Shown: positions 450 to 17,066 of the stretch, piece by piece
Layout: each line of letters opens with the position of its first letter
Position numbering within the stretch: position 1 is the first letter of the stretch
Assembly: GCA_021776825.1 (NCBI GenBank)
Contig: JAJFFG010000050.1
Span: 248,001 to 312,000, forward strand
Reading direction: 5' to 3'
Origin: Planctomycetota bacterium
GTDB lineage: Bacteria > Planctomycetota > JAJSAM01 > JAJVHW01
DNA length: 64,000 bases
The notes under the pieces: model-generated
Seen by the model: the letters and a program-made list of their open reading frames with translations, nothing else
Databases searched by the model: none
What the model was told of the DNA's origin: nothing
Made by a program: the position numbers and the translations under genes

Positions 450-3400
450 ATGCCCCTACCCGCACAGTTGGTCGCCATGTTCCCGCGCGCTGCGCGCAAG
501 AGTGCGAGGACCCTCGTCTCCGCCGGCGCCGTCGCGGTCTGGCGTATGACCGAGGCGACCGTCGAGGCGACCGTCCACGACGACGGCAGTCACGAGGCGA
601 GTGCGGATCTCGAGCAGAGTGACTCACCCCAACTTGCGTGCTCGTGCGGCGACTTCGAGCGTTGGGGACCGTGCCGCCACATCTGGGCGACGTTGGTCGA
701 GGCGGATCGGCGTGGCCTGCCTGTGCTTCGGGCGCGTGATGGCGAGGCTCGCAGCCGGTCGCGACGCCCGGATGACTGGGAGGAACGCCTCCGATCGCTG
801 CGGGACGACTTCGACGAGAACGCGGGCGAGGCGGCTCGCCGGCCGGCCGTACGCCTCCGGCAGGACGTCGAGGTCCTGTACGTCGTTGACGTGCCGCGCG
901 CGCGTCGCACCGGGTCGCTCGCGCTGAACGTCTACGTGCGGCGGAGACTGAAGAGCGGTCGGTGGGGCACGATGCGCAGTTTCGCGGCTGCCGTTGACGA
1001 GGGGTTCTCCCTGACGGACGGGCATGACCGGGTCGCGTACGCGTCTCTGTGCGGCGGTGCCGCTGGGGTGACGTGGCCCGAGGCGTTCGTCCTGCCTCGC
1101 GAGAGCGCTGCGCTGGCGCTTCCGCTGCTCTGCGCCACCGGTCGCCTCTACCTCGACGAGCCGGGGAGCACCGGCGCGGAGCCGCTGCACCTCGACGCCG
1201 AGAGCGACTGGACGTTCGGGCTCGCGGCCGAGCGCGGTGAGGACCGTCGCACGACGCTGCGTGGCGTGCTCTCCCGCGCGGACGAGCGCTTGGCCCTCGA
1301 GGACGCCGCGCTCGTCGTTCCCGACGGATGGGTGGTGGTGGGTAGCGCCGTCGGCGCGGTCGACACCGGCGGGCTAGAACCGGCGCTGCGCGCGCTGCTC
1401 GTCGAGGGGCCACTGACGTTCCCGACCGACGAGGAGGCGGCGGCGTTGGAACTGCTGCTGGAGTTGCCCGTCGTTCCGCGCATCGATGGGCTCGACCCCG
1501 GCCTCGAGGAACTCATCGTTCCCGAGCCGGTACTGGTGGCTCGTACTGAGATCGATGGAGCGGGGCTCGTCGCTTGCGCGCTGTCGTTCCGCTACGGCGG
1601 CGCGAGCGTGTCACTCCGCACTCGCGCTGCGGTCCTGCTCGACGGCGAGGGGCGGCGACGTATCCCCCGCGATCGAGTTCGCGAGGATGCCGCCCTCACC
1701 GAGCTGTTGGCGCCTCCCGGCGCCACGCCCGCACCCCCAGGTGACGAGTCCGATGTCCTCGTCCCGGCCACGGCGCTGCGCGGGATCGTCCCGCGACTGC
1801 TCGCCTCGGGCTGGCAGGTCGAGATCGCGGGCAAGATGCATCGTCAGCCAGGTCGCTTCCGCGGCACGGTGGCGTCCGGCATCGACTGGTTCGGGCTCGA
1901 TGGATCGCTGGAGTTCGACGGCGAATCGGCCCCCCTGCCCGACGTCCTGAAGGCGCTGCGCTCCGGTCAGACCTCGGTGGTCCTCGCCGACGGGTCGGTC
2001 GGACTGCTGCCCGACGACTGGATGCGGCGGTGGTCGCTGCTCTCCGCTCTCGGTACGGCCGATGACGACACGCTCCGGTTCGGGCGTCACCAGGGCTGGG
2101 TCCTGGACGCCCTGCTCGGCGAGCGTGAGGGCGTCGAATTCGACACCGACTTCCAGGCCTATCGCGCGCGTTTGAAGGAGTTCGACGGGATCCGAGAGAT
2201 CCACGAGCCCGAGACGTTCCAAGGCGTGTTGCGTGGCTATCAGCGCGAGGGACTCGGCTGGTTCGAGTTCCTGCGTGACTTCGACTGCGGCGGCTGTCTC
2301 GCCGATGACATGGGTCTCGGCAAGACCGTGCAGGTGCTCGCCATGATCCAGGCGCGCCGGGACGCGGGCGAGGCGAAGGGACCCTCGCTCGTCGTTGCCC
2401 CGCGCTCCGTCGTCTTCAACTGGGTCGACGAGGCGGCGCGCTTCACGCCCGGGCTCCGCGTCCTCGAATACACCGGGACGACGCGGAAGCGGCTGCAGCC
2501 CGAGTTCGACGAGACGGACATCATCGTCACGACGTACGGCGTACTGCGGCGCGACATCGCCGAACTGAGCGCACGCGAGTTCGACTACGCCATCCTCGAC
2601 GAGTCGCAGGCGGTGAAGAACCACGCGAGCCAGTCGTCGCGCGCGGCGCGGGCTCTGCGGTCCCACCATCGTCTCGCGTTGTCCGGGACGCCGCTGGAGA
2701 ACCACGTCGAGGAGCTGTGGTCGCTCTTCGAGTTCCTCAATCCCGGCATGCTCGGGCGCTCGACCGCCTTCCGGCGCGCACTTCAGGGAAGCAAGACCGG
2801 CAACGACGACGCCGACGGGCGGCGGCTCCTTGCGCGTGCGCTACGCCCGTTCCTGCTGCGGCGCACCAAGGAAGAGGTGGCGCGCGATCTGCCTCCGAAG
2901 ACGGAGCAGACGCTGCACTGCGAGATGCCTCCCAAGCAGCGACGCACGTATCGCGAGCTCCAGGAGCACTACCGCCGGACCTTGCTCGGCGGAGGGGCCG
3001 GAGGGCGTGCCGACGGTCGCGTCGAGGGCTCGCGCATGCACGTCCTGGAGGCGCTGCTGCGACTCCGTCAGGCGGCGTGCCATCCGGGACTCCTCGACGT
3101 CACCCGACGCGACGAGCCGACCGCCAAGCTGGATGCACTGCTCCCGCTTCTCGAAGAGGTCGTCGCCGAGGGCCACAAGGCGCTCGTGTTCAGCCAGTTC
3201 ACGTCTCTGCTCTCGATCGTGCACGAGCATCTCGACCGCGCAGGCCTGGTCTACGAGGTGCTCGACGGCTCGACGCGGGATCGCAAGGCGCGTGTGCAGC
3301 GCTTCCAGACCGACCCGGATTGCAGCGTGTTCGTGATCAGCCTGAAGGCCGGTGGCCTCGGACTCAACCTGACCGCGGCGGACTACGTGTTCATTCTGGA

Positions 3401-3626
3401 TCCCTGGTGGAATCCGGCGGCAGAGACACAGGCCATAGACCGCACGTACCGAATCGGGCAAACTCGGCGTGTCATGGCATACCGACTCATCTGCAGCGAC
3501 ACCGTCGAGCAGAAGATCGTCGAACTGCAGCAGCAGAAGCGGGACCTCGCGAACGCGATCCTGACCCATGACAACGCCGTACTCCGCGACCTCACGTCCG
3601 CCGATCTGGAACTGCTTCTCGCGTGA
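450..3626 (+). CDS. SWIM zinc-finger SNF2/Rad54-like helicase
   Basis: The 1058-residue product has an N-terminal SWIM zinc finger (C64, C66, C75, H77), a long middle region, and a complete SNF2 ATPase in its C-terminal half. Motif I (MGLGKT) is near residue 620, motif II is DESQ near 718 rather than the usual DEAQ/DEAH, motif III is SGTPLEN near 750, and helicase C ends with the arginine-finger motif 'DRTYRIGQTRR' near 1000. Bacterial SNF2 proteins of this type (RapA/HepA-like and YqhH-like) are ATP-driven translocases that remodel DNA-bound proteins; the exact target is unknown. It overlaps the next gene by one base, so the two are probably cotranscribed. Confidence 0.9.
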   Translation: MPLPAQLVAMFPRAARKSARTLVSAGAVAVWRMTEATVEATVHDDGSHEASADLEQSDSPQLACSCGDFERWGPCRHIWATLVEADRRGLPVLRARDGEARSRSRRPDDWEERLRSLRDDFDENAGEAARRPAVRLRQDVEVLYVVDVPRARRTGSLALNVYVRRRLKSGRWGTMRSFAAAVDEGFSLTDGHDRVAYASLCGGAAGVTWPEAFVLPRESAALALPLLCATGRLYLDEPGSTGAEPLHLDAESDWTFGLAAERGEDRRTTLRGVLSRADERLALEDAALVVPDGWVVVGSAVGAVDTGGLEPALRALLVEGPLTFPTDEEAAALELLLELPVVPRIDGLDPGLEELIVPEPVLVARTEIDGAGLVACALSFRYGGASVSLRTRAAVLLDGEGRRRIPRDRVREDAALTELLAPPGATPAPPGDESDVLVPATALRGIVPRLLASGWQVEIAGKMHRQPGRFRGTVASGIDWFGLDGSLEFDGESAPLPDVLKALRSGQTSVVLADGSVGLLPDDWMRRWSLLSALGTADDDTLRFGRHQGWVLDALLGEREGVEFDTDFQAYRARLKEFDGIREIHEPETFQGVLRGYQREGLGWFEFLRDFDCGGCLADDMGLGKTVQVLAMIQARRDAGEAKGPSLVVAPRSVVFNWVDEAARFTPGLRVLEYTGTTRKRLQPEFDETDIIVTTYGVLRRDIAELSAREFDYAILDESQAVKNHASQSSRAARALRSHHRLALSGTPLENHVEELWSLFEFLNPGMLGRSTAFRRALQGSKTGNDDADGRRLLARALRPFLLRRTKEEVARDLPPKTEQTLHCEMPPKQRRTYRELQEHYRRTLLGGGAGGRADGRVEGSRMHVLEALLRLRQAACHPGLLDVTRRDEPTAKLDALLPLLEEVVAEGHKALVFSQFTSLLSIVHEHLDRAGLVYEVLDGSTRDRKARVQRFQTDPDCSVFVISLKAGGLGLNLTAADYVFILDPWWNPAAETQAIDRTYRIGQTRRVMAYRLICSDTVEQKIVELQQQKRDLANAILTHDNAVLRDLTSADLELLLA

Positions 3627-4333
3627 TGGTCGAGTGCGCCACCGTGACCGTCCTCGTGGTCGAGGATGATCCGGAGACCGCCTCGGTCCTGAGTCAGCTC
3701 GTCGATGGCCAAGGCTGGGAGTCACGGATCGCCACCACGGCCGCCGACGCGGCTGCGGCACTCGAGAGCAAGGTCCCGGACCTCGTCCTGCTGGACGTGG
3801 TGCTTCCGGACGGGGACGGCCGTGACATCTGCCGCGCGTGGCGCGACGCGGGAATCTCCGTGCCCGTGCTCTTCGTCACCGGGCTCACCGGACCGGACGA
3901 GGCGATCGCAGCGTTCGAGGCCGGCGGCGACGGATTTGTGTCGAAGCCGTTTCATGTCGACGTGCTCTGCGCTCACGTGCGCGCGCTGCTGCGGCGTCGT
4001 CCCGACAGTCGCTCGCCGCAGCTCACGTACGCCGACCTGCAGCTCGACGTTCCGGCTCGGAAGGTGGTTCGGGCGGGGAAGCCAGTGCGCCTCTCCGAGC
4101 GCGAGTTCCAGCTCCTGGCCTACATGGTGCAGCACTCGGAGCGCGTGGTCTCACGCGGCGAGATCACGGTCCGTGTCTGGGACATGGAGACGCCCCCGAC
4201 GAGCAACGTCGTGGACGTCTGCGTGTGGAGCCTGCGGCGGAAGATCGATCAGAGCTTCGACGAGCCGCTCATCCACACGGTGAAGGGTCTCGGGTACCGC
4301 CTCGGACTCGCGCAGGCCGAAGACGACCTCTGA
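3626..4333 (+). CDS. OmpR/PhoB-family response regulator
   Basis: Two domains are visible. A receiver domain (about residues 7-120) has the acidic pair in 'VVEDDPE', the phospho-acceptor D57 in 'LLDVVLPDGDG' and a conserved Lys in 'VSKPF'. A winged-helix DNA-binding domain (about 135-230) has 'LSEREFQLLAYM' and ends in 'HTVKGLGYRL'. The ATG at 3626 shares one base with the helicase stop codon; a GTG three bases upstream is a possible alternative. No cognate histidine kinase adjoins it. The hybrid kinase at 8517 is the nearest sensor but has its own receiver and HPt domains, so pairing is uncertain. Confidence 0.92.
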   Translation: MVECATVTVLVVEDDPETASVLSQLVDGQGWESRIATTAADAAAALESKVPDLVLLDVVLPDGDGRDICRAWRDAGISVPVLFVTGLTGPDEAIAAFEAGGDGFVSKPFHVDVLCAHVRALLRRRPDSRSPQLTYADLQLDVPARKVVRAGKPVRLSEREFQLLAYMVQHSERVVSRGEITVRVWDMETPPTSNVVDVCVWSLRRKIDQSFDEPLIHTVKGLGYRLGLAQAEDDL

Positions 4334-4427: not shown

Positions 4428-6767
4428 CTACCCGATCCCGACGAGTCGTTCCCGCGCTCGCAAGATCGCTCGCACTCGGGTGCGTAGGCGCGCCGGCGGA
4501 ACGGGCTTCTGCAGATAGTCGTCCGCGCCGGCTTCGAGGCTGGCCTCTTCCATGATCTCGTCGCGAGAGCCCGTCAGCATCACGATCGGGAGCGCCGCTG
4601 TGACCAGATCCGAGCGGAGTGCCTGGATCACCTCGACTCCGGTGAGGCCCGGCATCATCTGATCGACGACGAGCACGTCGGGGACCTCGATCGCGATCGC
4701 GTCGAGGGCCGCCTGTCCACAGTCGACCTCCACGACGCGGGGGAACTCCGCCTCGAGTGCCCGCGCTGCGGTGCGGCGCGAGACGGGATCGTCGTCGCAG
4801 ACGATGGCGACCGGTCGCACGGGCTGCTGGGGTGCGGCCTCTCCGCAGTGGGGGCAGAAACTCCAATCCGCCGCGCGCTCCGCCTGACAGTTCGCGCAAA
4901 GCCCTGCGGCGGAGCGGCGCAGCACCTCCTCCGGCGATGGTGGAACTCTCTGCTGGCTCACGGTCGCTGTCGGCGTGGCCGTGGCGTCCGTCTCGGCGCC
5001 GGTCGCAGCGCCGGTCTCAGCGCCGCGCATCTCGCCGGCGGCGACACGGAGCACCTCGTCGGGTGTGGTCAGCCCCTGCGCGACCTTCGAGAGACCGGAC
5101 TGGACGAGCAGACGCGTTCCATCCTTGCGTGACTGCTCGAGCAACGCGCCATCCGCTGCGCCCGATGCGATGAGGGCCGACATCGACGGTGTGACGGCGA
5201 CCAGCTCGACCAACGCGGTTCGGCCCCGGTACCCCGTTCCCCGGCATGCCGGGCAGCCGGCCGCGGTACGTCCGAGCACCGGCTCGCCGCGGAAGTCCGC
5301 GCCGAGCGGGAGCAACACCGCGGACTCGTACGTGTGATCCGTCGCGCAGTCGGCGCAGAGTGTTCGGGCCAGCCGTTGGGCCATGACCCCGAGCAGGCAG
5401 CCCGCCACCAAGGTCGGATCTGCACCGAGATCGAGCAGTCGTGGGATCGCGCCGACCGCGTCGTTCGTGTGGAGCGTCGAGAGCACGAGGTGTCCCGTCA
5501 TCGCCGCCTGCAGACAGACGTTCGCCGTCTCGGCGTCGCGGATCTCGCCGACGAGAACGACGTCCGGGTCCTGGCGCAGGATGCTCCGCAGCGCCTTGGC
5601 GAACGTCATCCCGATCTTCGTCCGAACGGGCACGTGCACGATGCCTGGGAACTGGTACTCCACCGGATCCTCGACAGTGACGATGTTGCGGCTCGGGTCG
5701 CGCAGCTCGAGCAGCGAGGCGTAGAGCGTCGACGTCTTGCCGGACCCGGTGGGGCCCGTCATCAGCACCAGGCCGTTTGGCCGGTGCAGCATCTCGCGCC
5801 ACTGGGCGAGCACGTCGGCGTCGATACCACACGCGTTCAGGTCGAACGTCGCCGTCGTCGCATCGAGGATGCGGATGACCGCCTTCTCACCGAAGTAACA
5901 GGGCAACGTCGACACGCGCAGGTCGTACGCCTGCCCCGCACACGAGACCTTGGCGCGTCCGTCCTGCGGCATGCGGGTCTCGATGATGTCCAGCCCCGCG
6001 ACGATCTTCAGGCGCGAGACGACCGACGAGGCCGTCGAGACGGGAACGGCGAGCACCTCGCGGAGGAGTCCATCGATGCGGAACCGAATACGGAGCGCAT
6101 CCTTCTCCGGCTCGATGTGCACGTCACTGGCGCCGTGTCGGATCGCGTCGGCGAGGACGAGGTTCAACAGGCGCACGGCCGGGCCGTCCTGGTCGTTCGC
6201 CTGATCGAGCTCCATGGAACCGACGGAGCTGTCGTCCACGTCGCCGTCGGCCTCGAGCATCACGTCGTCGCCGATGACCGCGGCGTTCTTCAGCAGATCG
6301 TGCAGTGCCTCCTCTCCGGCACGTGCCGAGCGCATGGCACGCCGCACGTCGCTTGGCTTGGCGAAGAGCGCGCGCACCGGCATGCCGACCTGCTGCGCGA
6401 GCTCGTCCAGCGCCAGCACCTGGAGCGGATCTCCGGTTGCGACGACCAGTTCTCCGTCTTCTTCGCGGAGGGGGAGGAGCCCCAGTCGCTGTGCTGTCTC
6501 TGCCGGGACGAGTCCTTGTACTCCCGGATCTGGTAGCAGCTCGGATGCCTCGAGCACGCTCCGTCCGGTCACCGCGGCGAGTGCCGCGACCAGCTCGTCC
6601 TCGTCGACCGCCTCCTGCTCGAGAAGCACCTCGACGAGAGGTCGCTTGGCTCCGCGCTGTCGCGCCTTGGCTGCGTCGAGCGCCTCGATGCTCACCACGC
6701 CGCGGGCGACGAGCACGGTCTCGATCCGGTTCAGTCGGCGCTGTGTCGGCTGCACGTCGGCGGTCAT
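4428..6767 (-). CDS. PilB/GspE-type ATPase with C-terminal zinc ribbon and receiver domain
   Basis: This is the motor ATPase for type IV pilus or type II secretion assembly. It carries a GspE/PilB N-terminal domain (about residues 20-150), a Walker A motif GPTGSGKT near 337, 'EIRDAETANVCLQAAMTGH' with the following HT(L)HTND-type box, and the tetracysteine zinc site (CADC near 470, CPACRGTGYRGR near 504). A second zinc ribbon (CANC...CPHCGE, about 622-642) and a full receiver domain (about 652-770, with the DDD pocket, phospho-acceptor in 'VVDQMMPG' near 698, and 'QKPV') then follow. Family members normally end soon after the tetracysteine domain at about 560-600 residues, so this is a fusion. 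It is divergent from the pilin genes at 6932. Confidence 0.92.
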   Translation of the reverse strand: MTADVQPTQRRLNRIETVLVARGVVSIEALDAAKARQRGAKRPLVEVLLEQEAVDEDELVAALAAVTGRSVLEASELLPDPGVQGLVPAETAQRLGLLPLREEDGELVVATGDPLQVLALDELAQQVGMPVRALFAKPSDVRRAMRSARAGEEALHDLLKNAAVIGDDVMLEADGDVDDSSVGSMELDQANDQDGPAVRLLNLVLADAIRHGASDVHIEPEKDALRIRFRIDGLLREVLAVPVSTASSVVSRLKIVAGLDIIETRMPQDGRAKVSCAGQAYDLRVSTLPCYFGEKAVIRILDATTATFDLNACGIDADVLAQWREMLHRPNGLVLMTGPTGSGKTSTLYASLLELRDPSRNIVTVEDPVEYQFPGIVHVPVRTKIGMTFAKALRSILRQDPDVVLVGEIRDAETANVCLQAAMTGHLVLSTLHTNDAVGAIPRLLDLGADPTLVAGCLLGVMAQRLARTLCADCATDHTYESAVLLPLGADFRGEPVLGRTAAGCPACRGTGYRGRTALVELVAVTPSMSALIASGAADGALLEQSRKDGTRLLVQSGLSKVAQGLTTPDEVLRVAAGEMRGAETGAATGAETDATATPTATVSQQRVPPSPEEVLRRSAAGLCANCQAERAADWSFCPHCGEAAPQQPVRPVAIVCDDDPVSRRTAARALEAEFPRVVEVDCGQAALDAIAIEVPDVLVVDQMMPGLTGVEVIQALRSDLVTAALPIVMLTGSRDEIMEEASLEAGADDYLQKPVPPARLRTRVRAILRARERLVGIG

Positions 6768-6931
6768 GGCGTTCCTCGATTCGGGCGGTGTCTCTCGCTG
6801 CTAGTGATTCGGCACGCGACGAGTCCAGCCCAAGTGAGGAGCGACTAATGAACGCCCTCATGCGTCAACCGGTCCCTGCTAGACGCCGATCTTCCGAGAG
6901 CACCCGAACGGGGAACTGCAGGGAGGACGCG

Positions 6932-7579
6932 ATGACGAGCGAGGTAGCGCTGCGCTGTGCCGCAGACGACGGACGCACGGCCGTTGACGTGTGTGTCGTG
7001 TGCGACCGGCCCGCCTGCCGCGAGTGCGCCGGGGACGAAGCAGAGGGCGAGTTTCGATGCCGAGACTGTGCCTATGCGATCGCTCTCGGTCAGGTTGACG
7101 AGCAACACGCGTTGCGCGCCGCTGCGGCGGATGTGGAGGCTGAAGGCCCTGGCGCCCTTCGGACGTACGGCGCCCGAATCGCGCTCGTTGCTGCGGTCGT
7201 CGTGCTCTGCGGCTGGACCGGTCCGGGGGTCGCAGCGACGCTCGCCAAGGCACGTCCGTACGCGATCGGCCCGGTCGGAGACCCGGGGGAGGCGACCGAC
7301 CTGGACGACGCGGTGCGTGCCCTCTGGCAGGTCCGGGGGGGCCTGCAGGTCTACGCTGCGGCGAACGAGGGCCGCGTGCCGTCGTCGCTCTCGGAACTCA
7401 CGGACGTGCCGACCTCGTGCGGAGGCTGCGGCGGGACGTGGGCCTTCGAACGGACGAGCGAGCACTCGTATCGCATTGCGTGCCCGGCCCCGCGCCGGCA
7501 CGACCGCACGGGGGTGTTCCTCAATGACGTAGTCGGACCGCCTCAGGTCACGTTGGACGACACAGGAGGTGGACGATGA
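6932..7579 (+). CDS. B-box-like zinc-finger membrane protein with pseudopilin-like head
   Basis: The start ATG is preceded by a good ribosome site (GGGAGG, about 8 bases upstream); in-frame upstream codons overlap the divergent pilB promoter and are rejected. The 215-residue product has a Cys-rich N-terminus (CVVC...CREC...CRDC, about residues 21-50) like the B-box fingers found at the start of some bacterial membrane proteins. A single transmembrane helix (about 92-112) follows, then an outer domain beginning 'DDAVRALWQVRGGLQVY' with 'GRVPSSLSEL' and paired cysteines. That last part resembles a GspG-type pseudopilin head, but there is no prepilin leader. Its stop overlaps the pilin start by four bases (ATGA), implying translational coupling. 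Confidence 0.75.
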   Translation: MTSEVALRCAADDGRTAVDVCVVCDRPACRECAGDEAEGEFRCRDCAYAIALGQVDEQHALRAAAADVEAEGPGALRTYGARIALVAAVVVLCGWTGPGVAATLAKARPYAIGPVGDPGEATDLDDAVRALWQVRGGLQVYAAANEGRVPSSLSELTDVPTSCGGCGGTWAFERTSEHSYRIACPAPRRHDRTGVFLNDVVGPPQVTLDDTGGGR

Positions 7580-8520
7580 CCCCCAGATCACGGCGGCGCA
7601 GCGCCGGCTTCACGCTGGTCGAACTCATGATCGTCGTCGCCGTCATTGCGATCCTCAGCGGCCTGTTCGTGCAGAACGCTCAGTCCGCGGTGGAAGAGAC
7701 GAGGGCGATCGCCTGTGAGCGGAACCGCGTCCTGCTCGAGGACATGGAGAAGCATCTCGACCACGACCTCGGTCGCCCGAGTGTCTCGATTCACGAGCTG
7801 GTGGACGAGGGGTACGTCAACAAGGCCGTCTGCCCGCGCGGTGGCGTGCTCACGTGGACAGTCGAGGACCCGACTCTCAACTACGCGCACCAGGCGCTGG
7901 TGTGCTCGCTGCACGGTGAGAAGACTCGGATACGCAAGTGGCTGAAGGGCATGGCCGTTTCCGACGACCCGACCTTCGACCTCGCGTCGAACTTCGACGG
8001 CACGACCGCGGACGGCTGGTCCCAAGCGCGGGGGAAGTACTGGCAGGTCGTCGACGGGAAGTACCGCGCCGGCTCGCTTGCCCTGAACCGGAGTGGCCAC
8101 CATCAGTCGTTCTCCGGTGACGCGGCGTGGACGGACTACGAGCTCACGGGTAAGGCCAAACTGAACAAGGGCAACGGCTACGGCTTCTACTTCCGCACGG
8201 ACGTCTCGAACCCCAAGAAGATCGACGGCTACGTGCTCACGTACGAGCCGAACAACTCGCGCGGTTCCCTGGTCATCCGCAAGGTCACCAACGGTCGCAA
8301 CAGCCGCCCGATCGCCAAGGTGAAGGTCGGTCGGAAGGGCTGGGTCGGCACGGAGAAGGAGTTCCGGGTCGACGTCTCGGGCGACACGTTCACGGCGTAC
8401 GTGGACGGCGAGAAGATGCTGACCGCAACCGACTCAACGTACTCGTCCGGAGGTGTGGGACTGCGCTCGATGAACAAGAGCGTCACCGACTTCGACGACG
8501 TGAAGGTGAAGACGAAGTGA
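7576..8520 (+). CDS. Type IV pilin-like protein fused to a concanavalin-like domain
   Basis: The N-terminus is a textbook type III (prepilin) signal: basic residues, then GFTLVELMIVVAVIAILSG with the Gly-Phe cleavage site and Glu+5. A short pilin region follows, with 'CPRGGVLTW' and 'CSLHG', the paired-cysteine ending common in planctomycete pilins. The remaining half (about residues 138-314: NFDGTTADGW, YGFYFRTD, FRVDVSGDTFTAYVDGEKM) resembles a LamG/DUF1080 jelly-roll domain, often carbohydrate-binding. The whole is 314 residues, about twice a normal pilin. It overlaps both neighbours by four bases. Adhesive or substrate-sensing pilin is an inference. Confidence 0.82.
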   Translation: MTPRSRRRSAGFTLVELMIVVAVIAILSGLFVQNAQSAVEETRAIACERNRVLLEDMEKHLDHDLGRPSVSIHELVDEGYVNKAVCPRGGVLTWTVEDPTLNYAHQALVCSLHGEKTRIRKWLKGMAVSDDPTFDLASNFDGTTADGWSQARGKYWQVVDGKYRAGSLALNRSGHHQSFSGDAAWTDYELTGKAKLNKGNGYGFYFRTDVSNPKKIDGYVLTYEPNNSRGSLVIRKVTNGRNSRPIAKVKVGRKGWVGTEKEFRVDVSGDTFTAYVDGEKMLTATDSTYSSGGVGLRSMNKSVTDFDDVKVKTK

Positions 8521-11219
8521 GTAGCACGACCTCCAGCGCGCTCGACGCGGCTGCGTTGCCGCACGACCGGATCTTCGAGGCCACGGGTGAAGGCCTGCTG
8601 ATCCTCGACGTCGACGGCGTCGTCCATCACGCCAATGCGTTTGCGTTGGGACTCCTCAATCGTGAGATCGAGGACGTCCGCGGCAGGACGGTTTCCGATC
8701 TACTCGCCGTTCCGATCCCCGGCGACGATCCGGATGCCGCATTGCGAATGATCCTGCGCAGCGTCGGCGGGCCCGATGAGCCGGAGCACCTGATCGTCGG
8801 CGTGCCGCAGGCTACCGGGCGACCGCTGCCGATCGACGTCACGCTCACCGCCCTCGGCGAGGGCCTGCTCGTCGCCGTGATCCGCGATGCGATGGATCGG
8901 CTGCGCAACGAGAAGGAACTACGTCTCTACAAGCGCGCCGTCGACTTCACGTCGGAGGCGATCCTCTACACGTGCCGCAAGGGACTGATCCGCACGGTCA
9001 ACCGGGCGTTCGTGGATCTCACCGGATACGAGCTCGAGGAGGTCGAGGGTCGGACGCCCCGAGTGCTGAAGTCCGGGGAACACTCCGACGAGTTCTACGC
9101 AGACATGTGGGGCTCCATCGCCAACGGGGGACGCTGGCGCGGCGACCTCGTCAATCGCAGGAAGGACGGAACGACGTATCTCGCGAACCTCACGATCTCG
9201 CCCATCGTGCGCGACGACGGCTCGGTCCAGGGCTACGTCGGCATCCAGGAGGACGTCACACGCAAGCGAGCCGCGGAGAGAGAGCTGGCGGAGGCGAAGG
9301 AAGCCGCCGTGGCGGCGGGCCGCGCGAAGAGCGACTTCCTCGCGAACATGAGTCACGAGATCCGGACGCCGATGAATGCGATCATCGGCATGACGGAGCT
9401 GCTGGGTGACACGCGACTCGACGTCGAGCAGCGAGAGTTCGTCGACACTGTGTCGACGAGCGCCGACAGCCTGTTGCGACTCATCAACGACATCCTCGAC
9501 TTCTCGAAGATCGAGGCGCGCAAGCTCGAGATCGAGGAGGTCGAGTTCGACCTCGCCCGGCTCGTCGATCAGGTCGCCGGGATGGGTGCGCGCAAGGCGC
9601 ATCAGAAGCGCATTGAGCTCGCCTGCATGGTCTACGCCAACGTGCCTCCGCTCGTTCGCGGCGACCCCACGCGTGTGCGCCAGGTGCTTCTCAACCTGCT
9701 GACCAACGCCATCAAGTTCACGGGCGAGGGCGAGGTCGTGCTGCGTGCCCGCGTGGCGGAGCCAGGCGAAGATCGGGTCCGCGTTCGGTTCGAGGTGCAG
9801 GACACCGGGATCGGTATCCCGTCGGACCGCGCGAGCACGGTGTTCGATCCGTTCACCCAGGTGGATGCGTCGACGACCCGCAAGTACGGCGGTACCGGAC
9901 TCGGGCTTGCGATCGTCAAGCAACTCGTCGAACTGATGGGCGGAGAGATCGGCGTCGACACGATCGAGGGCCAGGGGTCCACGTTCTGGTTCGAACTGCC
10001 CTTCGATGTCGAGCACGGCTCGCCCGCGGAGCGACGTGCGCCGCGCGTGGACGTGCGCGGTCTCCGCGTTCTCGTCGTCGACGACAACGCCACGAATCGG
10101 CGCATCGTCGAGACGCATCTCAGTTCCTGGGGCTGCGATGCCGAGAGCTGCGCGGATGCCGAGACCGCGCTTCGTCGGGCGCGCGATGCGGCGGCCGCAG
10201 GGCAGCCGTTCGACGTCGGCGTCATCGACTTCCAGATGCCGGGCATGGACGGCGCGGAGCTCGGTCGCCACCTGAAGAGCGATCCAGCCACCGCGACCAC
10301 CGAGCTCATCATGCTCACGTCAATGACGCGCGGCGGAGAGCGCGAACGGATGGAGCAGGCCGGGTTCCGCAAGTGTCTGTCGAAGCCCGTCACGCGGCGC
10401 AGCCTGCTGCGTGCCTTCGAGGAAGCGGCTGCGCTCATCCGCCACACGGAGCTGAAGCGATCCAGCATGGTCGGGCGGAAGTCCGTCGTGGACGGCGACC
10501 TGGTCGGAGGACGCGTGCTCCTGGTCGAGGACAACCCGGTCAATCGACGCGTCGCCTGTCGGATGCTCCAGAAGCTCGGGTTCGAGTACGAGACGGCGGA
10601 GGACGGCGCACAGGCACTCAAGATTCTCGCCTCGTCCGGCTTCGACCTGATCATCTCGGACGTGCAGATGCCGGTCATGGACGGATTGGCGTTGGCCGCT
10701 GCCATTCGCGAACGGGAGCCCGAGGGGGTCCACGTGCCGATCATCGCCATGACCGCGCACGCGATGCAGGGAGATCGCGAGAAGTGCCTCGCGGCCGGGA
10801 TGGACGGCTACGTCGCCAAGCCCGTTCGCATCGCGGCGTTGAAGGAGGCCATCGACACCTGGCTGCGCCCGGTCTCTCCGCAGGGTGGGGAGTGGATTGA
10901 CGAAGACGCGTTGATGGCGGCGGCCGACGGTGACGTCGACTTCGCGCGCGAGCTCCTCGAGATGTTCCTCGGGGAGGCAGCGGCACGGATCGATGAGTTG
11001 GCCCAGGCCGTTGACGACGGCGACGGTGGCGTTCTGCGTCGAGCCGGACACCGCCTGAAGGGCGGGGCTGCGTGTCTCGGTGCCGAGCCGCTCCGCGCGC
11101 ACGCCGAGTCGCTCGAACTGATGGGCGCGGCAGACGATCTCAGCGGGGCAGCAGACGTGATCGAGCACCTACGTCGGGACTTCGAGCAGGCGAAGGGCGC
11201 GCTGGCGCGCCGCTCCTGA
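8517..11219 (+). CDS. Hybrid histidine kinase, PAS-PAS-HisKA-HATPase-REC-REC-HPt
   Basis: The GTG start overlaps the pilin stop by four bases (GTGA). In order there are two PAS domains (about residues 15-130 and 135-260), a dimerisation domain with the phospho-His in 'MSHEIRTPMNAI' (H about 280), and an ATPase domain with DTGIGIP and GGTGLGLAI. Two receivers follow (phospho-acceptors in 'VIDFQMPGMDG' about 571 and 'ISDVQMPVMDG' about 715), then an HPt domain with 'RAGHRLKGGAA' (H about 845). It has no transmembrane helix or periplasmic sensor, so it senses a cytoplasmic signal through its PAS domains. The phosphorelay could end on the PilB receiver or on the regulator at 3626; both are inferences from proximity. 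Confidence 0.93.
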   Translation: MSSTTSSALDAAALPHDRIFEATGEGLLILDVDGVVHHANAFALGLLNREIEDVRGRTVSDLLAVPIPGDDPDAALRMILRSVGGPDEPEHLIVGVPQATGRPLPIDVTLTALGEGLLVAVIRDAMDRLRNEKELRLYKRAVDFTSEAILYTCRKGLIRTVNRAFVDLTGYELEEVEGRTPRVLKSGEHSDEFYADMWGSIANGGRWRGDLVNRRKDGTTYLANLTISPIVRDDGSVQGYVGIQEDVTRKRAAERELAEAKEAAVAAGRAKSDFLANMSHEIRTPMNAIIGMTELLGDTRLDVEQREFVDTVSTSADSLLRLINDILDFSKIEARKLEIEEVEFDLARLVDQVAGMGARKAHQKRIELACMVYANVPPLVRGDPTRVRQVLLNLLTNAIKFTGEGEVVLRARVAEPGEDRVRVRFEVQDTGIGIPSDRASTVFDPFTQVDASTTRKYGGTGLGLAIVKQLVELMGGEIGVDTIEGQGSTFWFELPFDVEHGSPAERRAPRVDVRGLRVLVVDDNATNRRIVETHLSSWGCDAESCADAETALRRARDAAAAGQPFDVGVIDFQMPGMDGAELGRHLKSDPATATTELIMLTSMTRGGERERMEQAGFRKCLSKPVTRRSLLRAFEEAAALIRHTELKRSSMVGRKSVVDGDLVGGRVLLVEDNPVNRRVACRMLQKLGFEYETAEDGAQALKILASSGFDLIISDVQMPVMDGLALAAAIREREPEGVHVPIIAMTAHAMQGDREKCLAAGMDGYVAKPVRIAALKEAIDTWLRPVSPQGGEWIDEDALMAAADGDVDFARELLEMFLGEAAARIDELAQAVDDGDGGVLRRAGHRLKGGAACLGAEPLRAHAESLELMGAADDLSGAADVIEHLRRDFEQAKGALARRS

Positions 11220-11269: not shown

Positions 11270-12664
11270 CTATGAGCGGATCCGAGAGAGGAGTTCGCGC
11301 ATCTCCGGCACGCCGCCCTGGAAGAGTAGGTACCCGTCGTGCGGCTCGCGCTCCGTCATCTCGCCGGTGACGTTCTCCTGCATGAGTGCCGCCACCGCGT
11401 CGGGATCGTCCGGGTGCATCGCGAGGGCCCAGCCCAGCTTGATGAACGCGACCTCGGGCAGCATGTTCGCGAGCGGCAGCACGCCGCGCGCCAGGATCTC
11501 GCGACCGGTCTCGTACACCTGCATCTGCACGAAGCCCCAGAGCGTCTGGAGCGTCATGTAGATCTGCACGCCCGCGGCCGTCGCGCGCTCGATGGCGGGG
11601 AACAGCTTCGTGTTGACGTGACCGAGTCCCGTGCCGGCGATGACGATCCCGCGATAGCCACACCCGACCAGCGCGTCGAGCACGTCCGGGTTCATGTGCG
11701 GGTAGTAGTAGAGAATCGTCACTCGCTCGTCCCACACCGCATGCAACTGCGGGGGGCGATCGCTGCGGCGTTCCCGCCATCCGGTCTTCAGCGGAGAGAG
11801 GTGGCCCTCGGTCACCATCGCGAGCGGGATGTCGCCGATCGTGCGGAACGTGCTGCGGTACGAGCTGTGCATCTTGCGGACGCGGGTCCCGCGGTGCAGC
11901 AGGTTGTACGTGTCGGACGTCGGCCCGAACATGCAGACCATGACCTCGGCGATGGGGCCGTGCGCCGCGGTCCACGTCGCCGCGAGCAGGTTGCGTGCGG
12001 CATCCGAGGACGGGCGGTCGGACGAGCGCTGGCTGCCGACCATCACGATCGGGATTGGCGTGTCCTGCACCATGAAGGAGAGTGCAGCAGCCGTGTGATG
12101 CATCGTGTCGGTGCCGTGGCCGACGACCACACCGTCGTAGCCCTCTTCGATCGCCTCGACGACGCGCTCGGCCAACGTGAGCCAGTGCTCTCGGCCGATG
12201 TTCTCGCTGAACACGCCGAACAGCTTCTCGGTCTCGAGGTTGCAGATGTCCGCCAGCTCCGGGACCGAGCCGTAGAGCTCGCCTGGAGTGAAGGCCGGGA
12301 TCACGGCGCCCGTGCGGTAGTCCAGACGCGATGCGATCGTGCCGCCCGTCCCGAAGAGCCGGACTCGCGGCTTCGTCGGATCGCTCGGGAACTCTTCCTC
12401 GGGCACGCGGTAGACCGCCTCGCGGTAGCCCAGTACCTCGATGTTCTCGATGGTGTCGTGGCGGAGGCCGACGTTGTAGCCACTCTGGAGTTTCAGAACG
12501 ACGTGCTCGGCATCGGCGATCTCGCTGCGAGGGAGCACGAGTCCTTCGAAGGTCCCGCGCGTCGTGTGGGCGCGCACCTTCGACCAGACCGTCGCCTCGA
12601 AGCGACGCATCGTCGAGAGCGTCGGGTCGCGATAGCCCTTGTAGGCGTCGTCGGGGGCGCTCAT
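11270..12664 (-). CDS. gatD: Glutamyl-tRNA(Gln) amidotransferase subunit D (archaeal type)
   Basis: GatD is the asparaginase-like subunit that frees ammonia from glutamine for GatE, which amidates Glu-tRNA(Gln). The 464-residue product has a short N-terminal domain and then an asparaginase domain starting 'LFGTGGTIASRLDYRTGAV'. The catalytic set seen in archaeal GatD is complete: T109 (GGT), T185 and D186 (HGTDT), and K264 in 'RVRKMHSSYRSTF'. The last motif separates GatD from plain L-asparaginases. I chose the ATG at 12664, which overlaps the gatE stop by four bases; a longer frame upstream only reads gatE sequence. GatDE is regarded as an archaeal enzyme, so its presence here is unusual. 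Confidence 0.93.
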   Translation of the reverse strand: MSAPDDAYKGYRDPTLSTMRRFEATVWSKVRAHTTRGTFEGLVLPRSEIADAEHVVLKLQSGYNVGLRHDTIENIEVLGYREAVYRVPEEEFPSDPTKPRVRLFGTGGTIASRLDYRTGAVIPAFTPGELYGSVPELADICNLETEKLFGVFSENIGREHWLTLAERVVEAIEEGYDGVVVGHGTDTMHHTAAALSFMVQDTPIPIVMVGSQRSSDRPSSDAARNLLAATWTAAHGPIAEVMVCMFGPTSDTYNLLHRGTRVRKMHSSYRSTFRTIGDIPLAMVTEGHLSPLKTGWRERRSDRPPQLHAVWDERVTILYYYPHMNPDVLDALVGCGYRGIVIAGTGLGHVNTKLFPAIERATAAGVQIYMTLQTLWGFVQMQVYETGREILARGVLPLANMLPEVAFIKLGWALAMHPDDPDAVAALMQENVTGEMTEREPHDGYLLFQGGVPEMRELLSRIRS

Positions 12665-14727
12665 GCGGCGAGCTCCGGCGCGTCGCCGAGCCAGGCATCG
12701 ACGGCACTCCCGACGACCTGCGCCGGCAGTCGCCCGAGAAGAGCCGGCATGACGAGGCCCATCGCGAGACGGTGCGCGGCATCGCGCGGGAGATTCGGAG
12801 CGCGCTCGGTGCGCACCCACTCGATCTCCGACAGCCGGCGCTCGAGCTCCGCCCGATCGACGTCACCGCGTGCGGCGTAGCGATTCACAACTTCGTCCGG
12901 CGCCACGCCGGCGTCGCGCATCAGGTCGTCAAGAGCCGTGGCGAACGCCTGCGGGTGAACCGACTCGGCTTCGACCGCGGCGACCAACGGCCGCAAGCGA
13001 TCGGCGGATGGGAGTTCCGCACCGAGTGTGCGGCGATGATGGGGGAGACGGGTCTCGAACGCGTGGGCCAGTGCACCGGCGGACTCAGGGCCGGTCGGCG
13101 AGAGCGCGTCGAAGAGGTCGGCCCATGGCGCATCGACCAGCCGCGCGGCCACCGATCGTGAGAGCCCGGTGGCGACGTAGCGATCCTCGCGATCCCACGG
13201 GAGTTCCCCGACCGCCTCGTCCGCCGCGACGATCCATGTCTCCGGCACGGGCAGCGGCGGAGTGTCCGTGTCCGGATACATGCGCTGCGGCCCGGGCAGG
13301 ATGCGCTCGAGGCCCGTCGTCAGGTCGCCGTACGACTGCCGCGTCTCGGAAGGGACGCCGTCGAGTGCGTCCTGAGCGCGGATCAGGATCTCGCGGACCG
13401 CCGTGTCGACATCGGCAGCGGCACCCCACACGACCAGCATCGCATCGCGACTCTCGGCGGAGAGCGCGGCGCGGACCCGCCGCCACGTCGACGCCTTCAG
13501 GCCATAGTCCTGGAGGTGCGAGGAGATCATGAACGGGCGAGCGGTGAGGCAGGCGATGACGCGCACTCGATCGGCGAACTCGTGCGCGAAGGTCATCCCT
13601 GGCTGAAGCCGACGGCCGAGTAGATCGTCGAAGCGCGGTAGACGCACGGCGGCGATGAAGTCCCCGCGCGCCAAGGCATCGGCCACGGGCGGGTAGCCAC
13701 AGCCGCGGAGCGCCCGCCGTGCATCGACGGCGAGTGACGACTCCCATGCGACGCCGACCTCGGGGATCGTGAGCTGATCCTTCGTGACGCCGCGGTCGAG
13801 CAGCTCGGCTCGCAGTTTCAGCAGCTCCAGTTGACGGAACGCCTCGATGTGCACGAGACGCGGTAGCCCACGGTGATGAGCGACGCCCTTGATCTCGACG
13901 CGGCGGCCGCCCGCGATCGACACGTTCACGTCCTGCCGCGCCGCACCCGGACCACGGCGGACGGCACCGCTCGTGTGGACGACTCGCGAGAGCAGTCGCC
14001 CCCCAGCCGCAACGTCGAGGGGCGTCAGCAGATCCGGCTCCGTCACCGTCTCGACCAGCGGCGTACCGAGCCGATCGGTGCGGAACGTGATGAGGTGACC
14101 GACGTCGGACACCTCGCGACAGGAGTCTTCCTCGAGCGTCAACTGCCGGATGCGGATCACTTGGTCGCGCCCGAGTTCACTCTCGCGGAACGGGATCTCG
14201 CCGCCGACGGCGATCATCGCCGAGCGCTGGAAGCCCGCGGGGATGGACCCGTCGAGGTACTGCTTGCGCATGACCTGCAGCTCGGAGACGAGCGAGAGTC
14301 CGAACAGGCGCGAAACGTGAAGCGCGACCCGCACGGCTTCCTCGTCGATCTCGAACGGCGGCGTGTCGTCCATCTCGTACGTACAGACGGTGCTCCGTTC
14401 GAGCAGGTAGACGATGTCCTTGCGCGTCTTGAACTCCATCAGCGCGCAGCCGTCGTACTGACCGAGCTCCGACAGCGTGGGCCGCATGTGACGCAGCACT
14501 TCGCCGTCGACGCGCGCCGTCGAGCGTCCTGCCGGACAGCGGCAGAACAGTTTGCTGCGCGTTGCGAGTTGCTGGTGCACCTCGAGCCCGCAGATGAAGC
14601 CGAGCCGGTCGTAGTCGTCCGGAGTGAGGTGCCCGTAGTCGTGGAACGGGAAGTCGAGTGGTGTGTCGGTCCGAGGGTTGAGGTCGAACGGGTCCGGTGG
14701 CGCGGCCTTGAAGAGGTTGCGGATCAT
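12661..14727 (-). CDS. gatE: Glutamyl-tRNA(Gln) amidotransferase subunit E (archaeal type)
   Basis: GatE phosphorylates and amidates Glu-tRNA(Gln) using ammonia from GatD. The 688-residue product opens with the family hallmark 'GLEVHQQL' near residue 46 and 'SKLFCRCP', shared with GatB. It continues through the kinase/amidotransferase cradle ('RQLTLEEDSCREVS', 'EIKGVAHHRGLP'), holds the extra GAD-type insertion (about residues 290-400) that distinguishes GatE from bacterial GatB, and ends with a YqeY-type helical tail (about 560-688). Length agrees with archaeal GatE (about 620-640) rather than GatB (about 480). Four-base overlaps on both sides tie it to glnS and gatD. Confidence 0.93.
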   Translation of the reverse strand: MIRNLFKAAPPDPFDLNPRTDTPLDFPFHDYGHLTPDDYDRLGFICGLEVHQQLATRSKLFCRCPAGRSTARVDGEVLRHMRPTLSELGQYDGCALMEFKTRKDIVYLLERSTVCTYEMDDTPPFEIDEEAVRVALHVSRLFGLSLVSELQVMRKQYLDGSIPAGFQRSAMIAVGGEIPFRESELGRDQVIRIRQLTLEEDSCREVSDVGHLITFRTDRLGTPLVETVTEPDLLTPLDVAAGGRLLSRVVHTSGAVRRGPGAARQDVNVSIAGGRRVEIKGVAHHRGLPRLVHIEAFRQLELLKLRAELLDRGVTKDQLTIPEVGVAWESSLAVDARRALRGCGYPPVADALARGDFIAAVRLPRFDDLLGRRLQPGMTFAHEFADRVRVIACLTARPFMISSHLQDYGLKASTWRRVRAALSAESRDAMLVVWGAAADVDTAVREILIRAQDALDGVPSETRQSYGDLTTGLERILPGPQRMYPDTDTPPLPVPETWIVAADEAVGELPWDREDRYVATGLSRSVAARLVDAPWADLFDALSPTGPESAGALAHAFETRLPHHRRTLGAELPSADRLRPLVAAVEAESVHPQAFATALDDLMRDAGVAPDEVVNRYAARGDVDRAELERRLSEIEWVRTERAPNLPRDAAHRLAMGLVMPALLGRLPAQVVGSAVDAWLGDAPELAA

Positions 14728-17066
14728 CCCTCGCCGGTTCCCTGTCCCGATTCTCGTCCCAGGCGTTCGACGACGAGACGCCGCACGAGGTCCGGTTTCG
14801 CGGTGCCGCGCGTCTCCTTCATGACCCGACCCACGAAGAAGCCGAGGAGACCCGTCTTGCCACCGCGATACCGCGCGACCTCGTCTGGGTGCGCCGCCAG
14901 AACGCCGTCGACGGCCGGCCCGAGCGTACCGGTGTCGCTGACCTGTTCGAGATGGCGCTGGCGAACGATTGCTTCGGGATCGGCGCCATCGGTGGCAACT
15001 GCCGCGAAGACCTCCTTGGCGGCCGTGGCCGAGATGCGGTCACTCGTCACCATCGTCACGATGGCAGCGAGCACCGTCGGCGCCATCCCGAGTGTGGACG
15101 GATCGTCGCCGTCGACGGCGGGAAGCACCTCGTTCACGACCCACTTGGCGACGGCGGATGTGTCGGCGGCGGATGCCGCAGCATCGAAGTAGTCGGCAAT
15201 CGCGGCGCTGCGCGTCAGCGTGTGCGCATCCTGCGGGTCCAGACCGAGCACGCCGGTGTAGCGGTCGAAGCGATCGGCGAGGTCCGGGTCGCCTGCTTCC
15301 CACACGCGCGCCGCCGCTGGCGCCGGCTTGGTCTTCGGGCGGCGGACTCGAGCAGCTGGCTTCGGCGCGTCGCGCTTGCCCCACGAGTCGCGGAGCGTGA
15401 CGGTGCGATTGAGGACCGGGGACCCGGGGCGCGAGTCCTCGGTGTCGGCAATGAAGTACCCGACGCGCTCGAGCTGGAAGCGATCACCCGGGCGCGCGTC
15501 GGCCAGTTCGGGCTCGGCCATCGCAGCGGGGATGACGGTCAGCGACTCGGGGTTGAGCTCGTCGACGAAGTCGACCTCGGGGTCACGACCTGGCCGTGCA
15601 ACGGCGAACAGTCGGTCGTAGAGGCGCAGCTCGAGCGAGCGCCCGTGCACCGCGGACACCCAGTGGATCGTGCCGCGAACGCGGCGATCGGTCGGCGCAC
15701 TCCCGAGCGTGTCGCGATCGGCGCTACACCTCAGTTCGACGATCTCGCCGGCACCGTCGAGCACCACGTCGTCGCAACGGATCACGTAGCCGTGGCGCAG
15801 GCGGACCTCGCCGCCCGGCGTGAGACGGTGCCAGCCCTTCGGCGGGTCCACGCGGAAGTCGTCGCGCTCGATCCAGATCTCGCGCGTGAGGTGCAAGGCG
15901 CGCGACCCCTCGTGCGGAACGTCATGCGGCCAGAGCGGAGCTTCGATGCGCTCGTCGTGATCCTCAGGCAGGTTCGTGAGAACGACGCGCAGGGGATGGA
16001 GCACACACATCAGACGCGGCGAGCGGAGATTCAGGTCCTCGCGCACGCAGTACTCGAGCTTGCCGAGGTCGATGACGCTGTTGGCCTTGCTGATGCCCAC
16101 GAGGGAGTTGAGCGCACGGAGCGCCTCGCTCGTCACGCCGCGGCGGCGCAGGCCGCGCAGCGTGGACATGCGGGGATCGTCCCACCCGCTGACGTGTCCC
16201 TCTTCGACGAGCCGGCGCATGTAGCGCTTGCTCATCAGCACGTAGTCGAGCTCGAGTCGTGCGAACTCGAACTGACGCGGTCGTGGCTCCGGCCAGACCG
16301 ACTCGAGGACCCAGTCGTACAGCGCCCGATTGATCTCGAACTCGAGCGTGCAGAACGAGTGGGTCACGCCCTCGATGGCGTCTTCGATGCAGTGCGCGAA
16401 GTCATACATCGGGTAGATGCACCACGCATCGCCCGTGCGGTGGTGCGTCGCGTGCCGAATGCGATAGAGCAGCGGATCGCGCAGGAGCATGTTGGGCGAC
16501 GCCATGTCGAGCTTCGCCCGCAGCACGTGCGTGCCATCCGCGAACTCGCCTGCCCGCATGCGGCGGAACAGATCGAGGTTCTCGTCGACGCTGCGATCGC
16601 GGTAGCGGCTCGCCGTGCCCGCCTCGGAGACGGTCCCACGATGCTCGCGGATCTCGTCGATCGACTCGCTGTCGACGTACGCCCGACCGTCCTGCACGAG
16701 GCGTTCGGCCAGCTCGTACATCTGTGCGAAGTAGTCCGACGCGAACCGCACCGGACCGTCCCACGTGCAGCCGAGCCAGGTGATGTCCGCCTGGATCGCC
16801 TCGACGAAGCGCGTGTCTTCGGCGAGCGGGTTCGTGTCGTCGAAGCGCAGGTGGAAGTGTCCACCGTGCTCCCGCGCCACGTCGTGGTCGAGAAGGATGG
16901 CCTTCGCGTGCCCGATGTGGAGGAAGCCGTTCGGCTCCGGGGGGAATCGCGTGACGACGCGCGCGAGGCCGGCGGCGACGTCCTTCGCGACAATGTCGCG
17001 GATGAAGTCGGAACGCCGCCGGCTCACGCCGTCGGATGGGGTGTCGGTCGAATCCGTCTCTGCCAT
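14724..17066 (-). CDS. glnS: Glutaminyl-tRNA synthetase with C-terminal YqeY domain
   Basis: This class I synthetase charges tRNA(Gln) directly with glutamine. It shows HIGH at residues 50-53 within 'PPEPNGFLHIGHAKAI', a KMSKS-type loop reduced to 'VLMSKRYM' near 275, and the GlnRS anticodon-binding beta barrels up to about 560. A linker rich in Pro/Ala/Lys then leads to a GatB/YqeY-type tail (about 595-775), an arrangement known from Deinococcus GlnRS. Its C-terminal tail is of the same family as the tail of GatE encoded next door. It is the first gene of the coupled glnS-gatE-gatD cluster, which therefore encodes both known routes to Gln-tRNA(Gln). Confidence 0.95.
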   Translation of the reverse strand: MAETDSTDTPSDGVSRRRSDFIRDIVAKDVAAGLARVVTRFPPEPNGFLHIGHAKAILLDHDVAREHGGHFHLRFDDTNPLAEDTRFVEAIQADITWLGCTWDGPVRFASDYFAQMYELAERLVQDGRAYVDSESIDEIREHRGTVSEAGTASRYRDRSVDENLDLFRRMRAGEFADGTHVLRAKLDMASPNMLLRDPLLYRIRHATHHRTGDAWCIYPMYDFAHCIEDAIEGVTHSFCTLEFEINRALYDWVLESVWPEPRPRQFEFARLELDYVLMSKRYMRRLVEEGHVSGWDDPRMSTLRGLRRRGVTSEALRALNSLVGISKANSVIDLGKLEYCVREDLNLRSPRLMCVLHPLRVVLTNLPEDHDERIEAPLWPHDVPHEGSRALHLTREIWIERDDFRVDPPKGWHRLTPGGEVRLRHGYVIRCDDVVLDGAGEIVELRCSADRDTLGSAPTDRRVRGTIHWVSAVHGRSLELRLYDRLFAVARPGRDPEVDFVDELNPESLTVIPAAMAEPELADARPGDRFQLERVGYFIADTEDSRPGSPVLNRTVTLRDSWGKRDAPKPAARVRRPKTKPAPAAARVWEAGDPDLADRFDRYTGVLGLDPQDAHTLTRSAAIADYFDAAASAADTSAVAKWVVNEVLPAVDGDDPSTLGMAPTVLAAIVTMVTSDRISATAAKEVFAAVATDGADPEAIVRQRHLEQVSDTGTLGPAVDGVLAAHPDEVARYRGGKTGLLGFFVGRVMKETRGTAKPDLVRRLVVERLGRESGQGTGEG

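Follow-up and report, generated by a model that had tools for sequence, protein, structure and literature searches.

The window, a stretch of 64,000 nucleotides from a contig of a Planctomycetota bacterium, encodes at 4428-6767 on the (-) strand a PilB/GspE-type assembly ATPase of 779 aa, which carries a zinc ribbon and a receiver domain (REC) at its C-terminus. The fusion is real, conserved and functionally coherent, and it is best read as a motor of known type, in which a phosphorelay has its output on a pilus-type ATPase encoded in a compact cassette. Conservation of the gene neighbourhood is a stronger result than the fusion itself. The original prediction, that phosphorylation controls the motor directly and that a nearby HPt kinase is involved, is partly supported, and much better so than it was from the window sequence alone.

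The combination of a PilB/GspE ATPase, a zinc ribbon and a receiver in one protein, as originally claimed, was confirmed by a single uninterrupted ORF (ATG start, 779 codons, zero internal stops), by Pfam and by full-length orthologues. From the N-terminus, and all on the (-) strand, the protein consists of an MshEN domain (residues 70-153, 6309-6560, Pfam E 6e-16), a T2SSE ATPase domain (residues 192-574, 5046-6194, Pfam E 7e-126), a low-complexity linker (residues 575-623, 4899-5045), a zinc ribbon of the form C624-x2-C627-x10-C638-x2-C641 (4842-4898) and a receiver domain (residues 655-766, 4470-4805, Pfam Response_reg E 4e-24) with the phospho-acceptor D702. The T2SSE score of 420 bits lies far over the cut-off of 24.9 and makes the protein a member of that family, an assignment also based on invariant columns and a PilB fold match. 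The domain contains the Walker A motif GPTGSGKT and a tetracysteine site (C471/C474/C505/C508), which is invariant in all seven aligned proteins, while Walker B and the His-box fall within invariant columns of the ATPase alignments. This site is distinct from the ribbon (C624/C627/C638/C641), and both cysteine sets are unchanged in an alignment of the four Planctomycetota fusion proteins. The complete motor with its own tetracysteine site plus a second zinc ribbon was correctly predicted. The Zn_Ribbon_1 match (residues 624-642) scores 20.0 bits, which is under the 25-bit Pfam cut-off, and the homologous double ribbon of another Planctomycetota carrier (G022) clears the Pfam cut-offs with 49.5 bits. 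As expected of a full phospho-acceptor receiver, D659, D702, T732 and K754 are all intact.

An AlphaFold model, built from 40 aligned rows, has a mean pLDDT of 85 and shows MshEN, ATPase, ribbon and REC folding separately; MshEN and the ATPase are well folded, the ribbon and the receiver are fair, and residues 586-607 between ATPase and ribbon are unfolded (pLDDT <50), within the stretch listed as linker. The top matches in a fold search with this model were PilB and GspE structures, with a TM-score by target of up to 0.93, and none of 60 examined among the 66 PDB sequence matches held an ATPase and a receiver in one entry. Compared with known PilB/GspE ATPases (PF00437; Geobacter PilB 5TSG/5TSH/5ZFR), the window protein has the whole core and the tetracysteine site in common but differs by the second zinc ribbon and the receiver, and by equivalog scores that stay below the curated cut-offs, namely 535.6 bits versus 675.65 for PilB (TIGR02538) and 525 bits versus 630.25 for GspE (TIGR02533). 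In the N-terminal part, both c-di-GMP motifs of MshEN are degenerate, the window copy having been judged by eye against the published motif (PMC5013675). No relaxed match to the tandem 24-residue motif of that paper was found in the G049 or G022 fusions, and the tandem is present in 12 of 152 PilB-type ORFs. The fused ATPase, like most of this set, has a degenerate motif, so that its control by c-di-GMP appears unlikely. The idea that a c-di-GMP role of MshEN was traded away for the receiver was rejected as a special feature, since most PilB-type ORFs are also without the tandem.

Beyond a spacer of 164 bases (6768-6931), three genes on the (+) strand, divergent from the ATPase gene, overlap in series from 6932 to 11219. 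The first (6932-7579) encodes a membrane-anchored pilin-like protein of 215 aa, in which an N-terminal B-box-like zinc finger, a membrane helix and a pilin-like domain were recognised by eye; Pfam gave no match over a cut-off, and the structure model (pLDDT 43) is too poor for a fold reading. Matches to it below 1e-10 occur in three of 392 Planctomycetota genomes (G000, which is the host, G049 and G022), each adjoining a fusion, and at E 0.001 in seven of the 392, the other four being weak. The second gene (7576-8520) encodes a prepilin of 314 aa with an N-methylation motif and, according to Pfam, a C-terminal PF06439 (3-keto-disaccharide hydrolase) domain, and a 53% identical homologue is found at the G049 locus. 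The third (8517-11219) encodes a hybrid histidine kinase of 900 aa with the Pfam architecture PAS-HisKA-HATPase-REC-REC-Hpt, the Hpt domain lying at 10950-11195. The kinase begins 1,750 bases from the ATPase start, in agreement with the 1.7 kb originally given for an HPt hybrid kinase. Its start overlaps the prepilin stop (GTGA, 8517-8520), and as read from the sequence, translation of the kinase is coupled to that of the prepilin. No PilC-like platform, secretin or GspL/F gene was seen with Pfam among the neighbouring genes examined, and some components of the machine may be common to other loci of the host genome (6.9 Mb, 133 contigs), which has 11 T2SSE matches.

Among the alternatives to the preferred reading, the one that survives best concerns the output, which would be a type II-like secretion pseudopilus exporting the PF06439-domain protein or other enzymes, with the receiver gating secretion. 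It is favoured by the near-equal scores against the PilB and GspE equivalogs, both under cut-off, and by the carbohydrate-type domain borne by the prepilin, but the neighbourhood examined shows no secretin or GspL/F genes, and we regard this output as possible though rather unlikely. It is compatible with control by a phosphorelay, and the regulatory logic would be the same if the output were a secretion pseudopilus.

On the other side of the ATPase gene and convergent to it, an OmpR-type response regulator is encoded at 3623-4333 (+), which is overlapped by four bases by a large helicase-like gene, SNF2-like by eye, the pair spanning 450-4333 (+). Downstream of the kinase, overlapping genes for GatD, GatE and GlnRS-YqeY occupy 11270-17066 (-). 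GatDE is regarded as archaeal, and the GatE of the window passes the archaeal gatE_arch equivalog (367.5 bits versus a cut-off of 319.55); GatDE beside GlnRS is unusual in a bacterial genome.

A domain search for PilB-receiver fusions, as had been proposed with the original prediction, recovered C-terminal REC fusions to a PilB/GspE-type ATPase in at least 13 genomes of four phyla, the host included. Full-length orthologues were found in at least four of 392 Planctomycetota genomes (the host and three others, whose proteins are 61% (G049), 54% (G200) and 40% (G022) identical to the window ATPase), and fusions in at least six of 297 Acidobacteriota genomes (G1048 being recognised only on reading its locus), at least two of 198 Nitrospirota genomes and at least one of 47 Candidatus Eisenbacteria genomes (G784). 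Cross-phylum searches used a profile of four Planctomycetota proteins, or seven proteins for Acidobacteriota, and all fusion counts are lower bounds, since match lists were truncated and few candidates per genome were scored in the large searches. The absence of the architecture from relatives had been named as an argument against the fusion; it is indeed missing from the eight nearest relatives of the host (family and order), which have no full-length match to the window ATPase, but it is present at the level of the phylum. As well, G200 is the sole carrier among 12 genomes of its own family. In Chloroflexota, a full-length match occurred in none of 121 genomes among the matches listed, and this phylum was rejected as a fusion host because matches covering residues 19-772 were adjacent separate genes. 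Chloroflexota PilBs of ~800 aa were rejected as fusions too, as their N-terminal domain is other than REC; at L191-L194 this N-terminal region resembles, by eye, a duplicated nuclease-like domain and not MshEN.

In a search-biased set of 222 distinct PilB-type ORFs, 185 lacked both ribbon and REC, the double ribbon alone occurred in 28, and a REC was C-terminal in seven and N-terminal in two. The double ribbon thus characterises a wider PilB-like group (e.g. L181, L182 and L269), onto which the receiver appears to have been added, C-terminally in the window protein and N-terminally in some Nitrospirota. The receivers of the four Planctomycetota proteins cluster together in the REC tree (support 96), and a single origin of the C-terminal fusions is neither established nor rejected, with a p-AU of 0.173 for all 13 and 0.764 for the first seven only. 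All 13 fusions retain the Walker A motif GPTGSGK[ST] and the receiver residues D659, D702, T/S732 and K754, and this conservation of the catalytic residues speaks against a merely structural receiver.

Conservation of the active site also bears on the next alternative, in which the receiver would be a docking or localisation module that ties the ATPase to the pole or to a partner, instead of a phosphorylation switch. The available part of a review reports that the REC of FimX, although devoid of the acceptor aspartate, is important for localisation (PMC11656802), and in G049 the fusion persists with no kinase beside it. However, the catalytic residues are kept in all 13 fusions across four phyla, and REC-REC kinases, together with an Hpt gene, are enriched next door, and we consider a docking module improbable.

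The gene neighbourhoods speak for a phosphorelay. The order membrane pilin-like protein, prepilin and REC-REC kinase beside PilB-REC is found in the window, in G784 (Eisenbacteria) and in G820 and G804 (Acidobacteriota), and the ATPase gene is divergent from the pilin-kinase operon in the window, G820 and G804. In G784, PilB-REC, the membrane pilin-like protein, the prepilin and an HK-REC-REC-Hpt follow in succession; the two junctions that overlap in the window do so here as well, by 4 bases each, and the prepilin/kinase overlap is GTGA in both. The G820 locus has the layout of the window, with PilB-REC divergent from the membrane protein, prepilin and HK-REC-REC, and the contig ends inside the kinase. 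The divergent operon of G804 encodes the membrane protein, two prepilins and an HK-REC-REC without an Hpt match, and an Hpt is encoded there by a gene of its own (Pfam 1e-9), which overlaps the called PilB-REC ORF at the 5' end of the latter. A kinase layout like that of the window stands beside PilB-REC in G784, G822 and G972; in G822 (Acidobacteriota), the HK-REC-REC-Hpt gene starts on the PilB-REC stop codon (TGATG overlap), and in G972 it lies one gene away. Two Nitrospirota loci have kinases of the GAF type and regulators ahead of the fusion. No kinase was found at the locus of G049, the nearest relative with neighbouring genes to compare, or within the one-sided 6.4 kb flank of G200, and in G022 and G1098 the sequence around the fusion does not reach far enough to judge the presence of a kinase.

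A further, operon-like run of genes was read at L245 (1-10607, G668), with some names given by eye, where a GAF kinase, a REC-REC-GGDEF regulator, PilB-ribbon-REC and a DnaJ-like protein are followed by a degenerate PilB-like protein, a PilT-like ATPase and a CheY-like receiver.

The membrane proteins of the window, G049, G022, G820 and G804 were supported by leave-one-out profiles (E 2e-24 to 2e-12), in which those of G820 and G804 presumably find each other. These profiles did not connect the G784 and G809 proteins with the rest, and G784 is counted as a match by its layout for this reason. In G809 (Acidobacteriota; L269, 5550-8546), a B-box membrane protein, linked at 7e-6 by the Planctomycetota profile, a prepilin and a double-ribbon PilB occur without REC or kinase. 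This trio is possibly the ancestral form of the cassette, and its lack of REC and kinase suggests that the signalling parts were later additions to an existing small machine. The B-box-like finger is present on the membrane protein at three of four loci with a ribbon-bearing ATPase (G000, G049 and G809, not G022) versus none of three loci with a ribbonless one (G784, G820 and G804). As the finger tracks the ribbon-bearing ATPases, the zinc modules may form a joint between motor and platform, although the pattern is suggestive only.

Over the 10 fusion loci with usable flanks (G200, G022 and G1098 were dropped as short or one-sided), a kinase of any type flanked nine, versus 21 of 79 ordinary PilB loci (Fisher p 1.7e-4), and a two-REC kinase flanked six of 10 versus none of 79 (Fisher p 3.6e-7), these tests being post hoc, with unequal flank lengths and the discovery locus included. 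In three of five cassette genomes (G784, G972 and G804), the protein most similar to the window kinase is the kinase of the cassette, and the adjoining kinase is not the best match in G822 or in G820, where it is cut by the contig end. A single lineage of cassette kinases is neither shown nor rejected by the kinase tree (p-AU 0.247).

It is quite improbable, in our view, that the switch is real but served by other kinases, the 8517 kinase controlling something else, such as expression of the pilin operon. The host genome contains 74 matches to this kinase, which gives many candidates, an OmpR-type regulator stands nearby (3623-4333), and the G049 locus is without a kinase; against this, the prepilin-kinase order and its overlaps are conserved between the window and G784, an Hpt kinase starts on the PilB-REC stop in G822, and an Hpt gene sits at the PilB-REC start in G804. 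Direct phospho-control with the nearby HPt kinase is supported by the coupling of prepilin and kinase, by REC-REC kinases at six of 10 loci and by the Hpt gene of G804, but not by the kinase-free locus of G049. That two genes were joined by a frameshift or an assembly error has a practically negligible probability in spite of the missing full-length match in the nearest family and order relatives, because the frame is open throughout and the same architecture is repeated in 12 further genomes across the four phyla, which makes the fusion neither chance nor an assembly join.

Receivers acting on extension ATPases have been described as separate proteins. EmvR of Xanthomonas oryzae, a single-domain response regulator, binds PilB and reduces its ATPase activity by ~40%, according to the accessible part of the report (PMC11973254). 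It resembles the fused domain in being a phosphorylatable REC that acts on an extension ATPase, an action which is predicted here, but in that text it is a separate protein in trans, paired with ColS, with no fusion and no pilin cassette (PMC11973254). Likewise, in the portions of the papers available, PilG of the Pseudomonas Pil-Chp system affects PilB localisation (PMC12632253), and PixE, a PATAN-CheY protein of Synechocystis, was hypothesised to bind PilB1 (PMC7690835). PilG/PilH and PixE are thus comparable as CheY-like regulators that control PilB localisation or activity (PMC12632253, PMC7690835), but they are separate proteins of chemotaxis-type or photoreceptor systems. In its accessible sections, a 2024 review of PilB cofactors treats receivers only in FimX and as separate regulators (PMC11656802), and Wang et al. 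(2016), as far as the text is available, name an association of MshEN with REC in some proteins without going beyond naming the pairing (PMC5013675). Within the open-licence PMC literature, judged mostly from listings, no paper was recognised as describing a PilB-REC fusion.

Three Nitrospirota genomes (G697, G701 and G743) also have a receiver fused to the same type of ribbon-bearing ATPase with adjoining kinases, but their REC is N-terminal and their zinc ribbon is a double, C-terminal one. Since this REC sits at the other end and clusters in the REC tree with receivers that nearby genes of these loci encode, the N-terminal fusion was apparently a separate event. These PilBs are located at L247 (5280-7730), L250 (4173-6656) and L248 (5339-7768), the copy of G743 being split by a stop, and their loci also contain kinases, further REC genes and, by eye, an MglA-type GTPase. 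In the Dehalococcoidia loci L130, L132 and L145, a kinase gene, a separate receiver gene and a PilB gene directly follow one another as an unfused counterpart.

Taken as a whole, the locus probably encodes a small dedicated machine that assembles a pilus or pseudopilus and whose motor is gated by a phosphorelay. In the mechanism that we propose, the hybrid kinase (8517-11219) would sense a signal via its PAS region, phosphorylate its own receivers and hand the phosphoryl group to its Hpt, which would pass it on to D702 of the receiver, tethered by the flexible linker to the hexameric ATPase. Phosphorylation would alter docking of the receiver on the ATPase or on the membrane platform and thereby start or stop polymerisation of the prepilin encoded next door, while the filament would be connected to its motor by the membrane-anchored pilin-like protein. 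The cell could then turn fibre building on or off directly, with gene expression unchanged. Phosphotransfer and the sequence of its steps, what it does to ATPase activity and in which direction, the function of the membrane protein and the type of filament are inferred. A broader proposal, which we make tentatively and rate somewhat short of an even chance, is that of a pilus cassette which is complete in itself and gated by a kinase, and whose age or mobility would account for its occurrence in Planctomycetota, Acidobacteriota and Eisenbacteria. Its parts would be the REC-bearing ATPase, a dedicated prepilin, a kinase of the REC-REC-Hpt type and a membrane-anchored pilin-like protein that stands in for some of the customary platform, and it would carry a signal straight from sensor to filament motor.

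To our knowledge, two-component systems act on pilus motors through transcription, via second messengers or by way of free-standing CheY-like proteins, and the docking of such proteins on PilB is difficult to isolate. In the protein described here, switch and motor are covalently joined, and the kinase that probably serves the switch is encoded together with the pilins. Such a single-polypeptide system would allow a direct measurement of what receiver phosphorylation does to an assembly ATPase. Moreover, the natural series of ribbon only, N-terminal REC, C-terminal REC and separate Hpt may show how a regulator is grafted onto a secretion motor.
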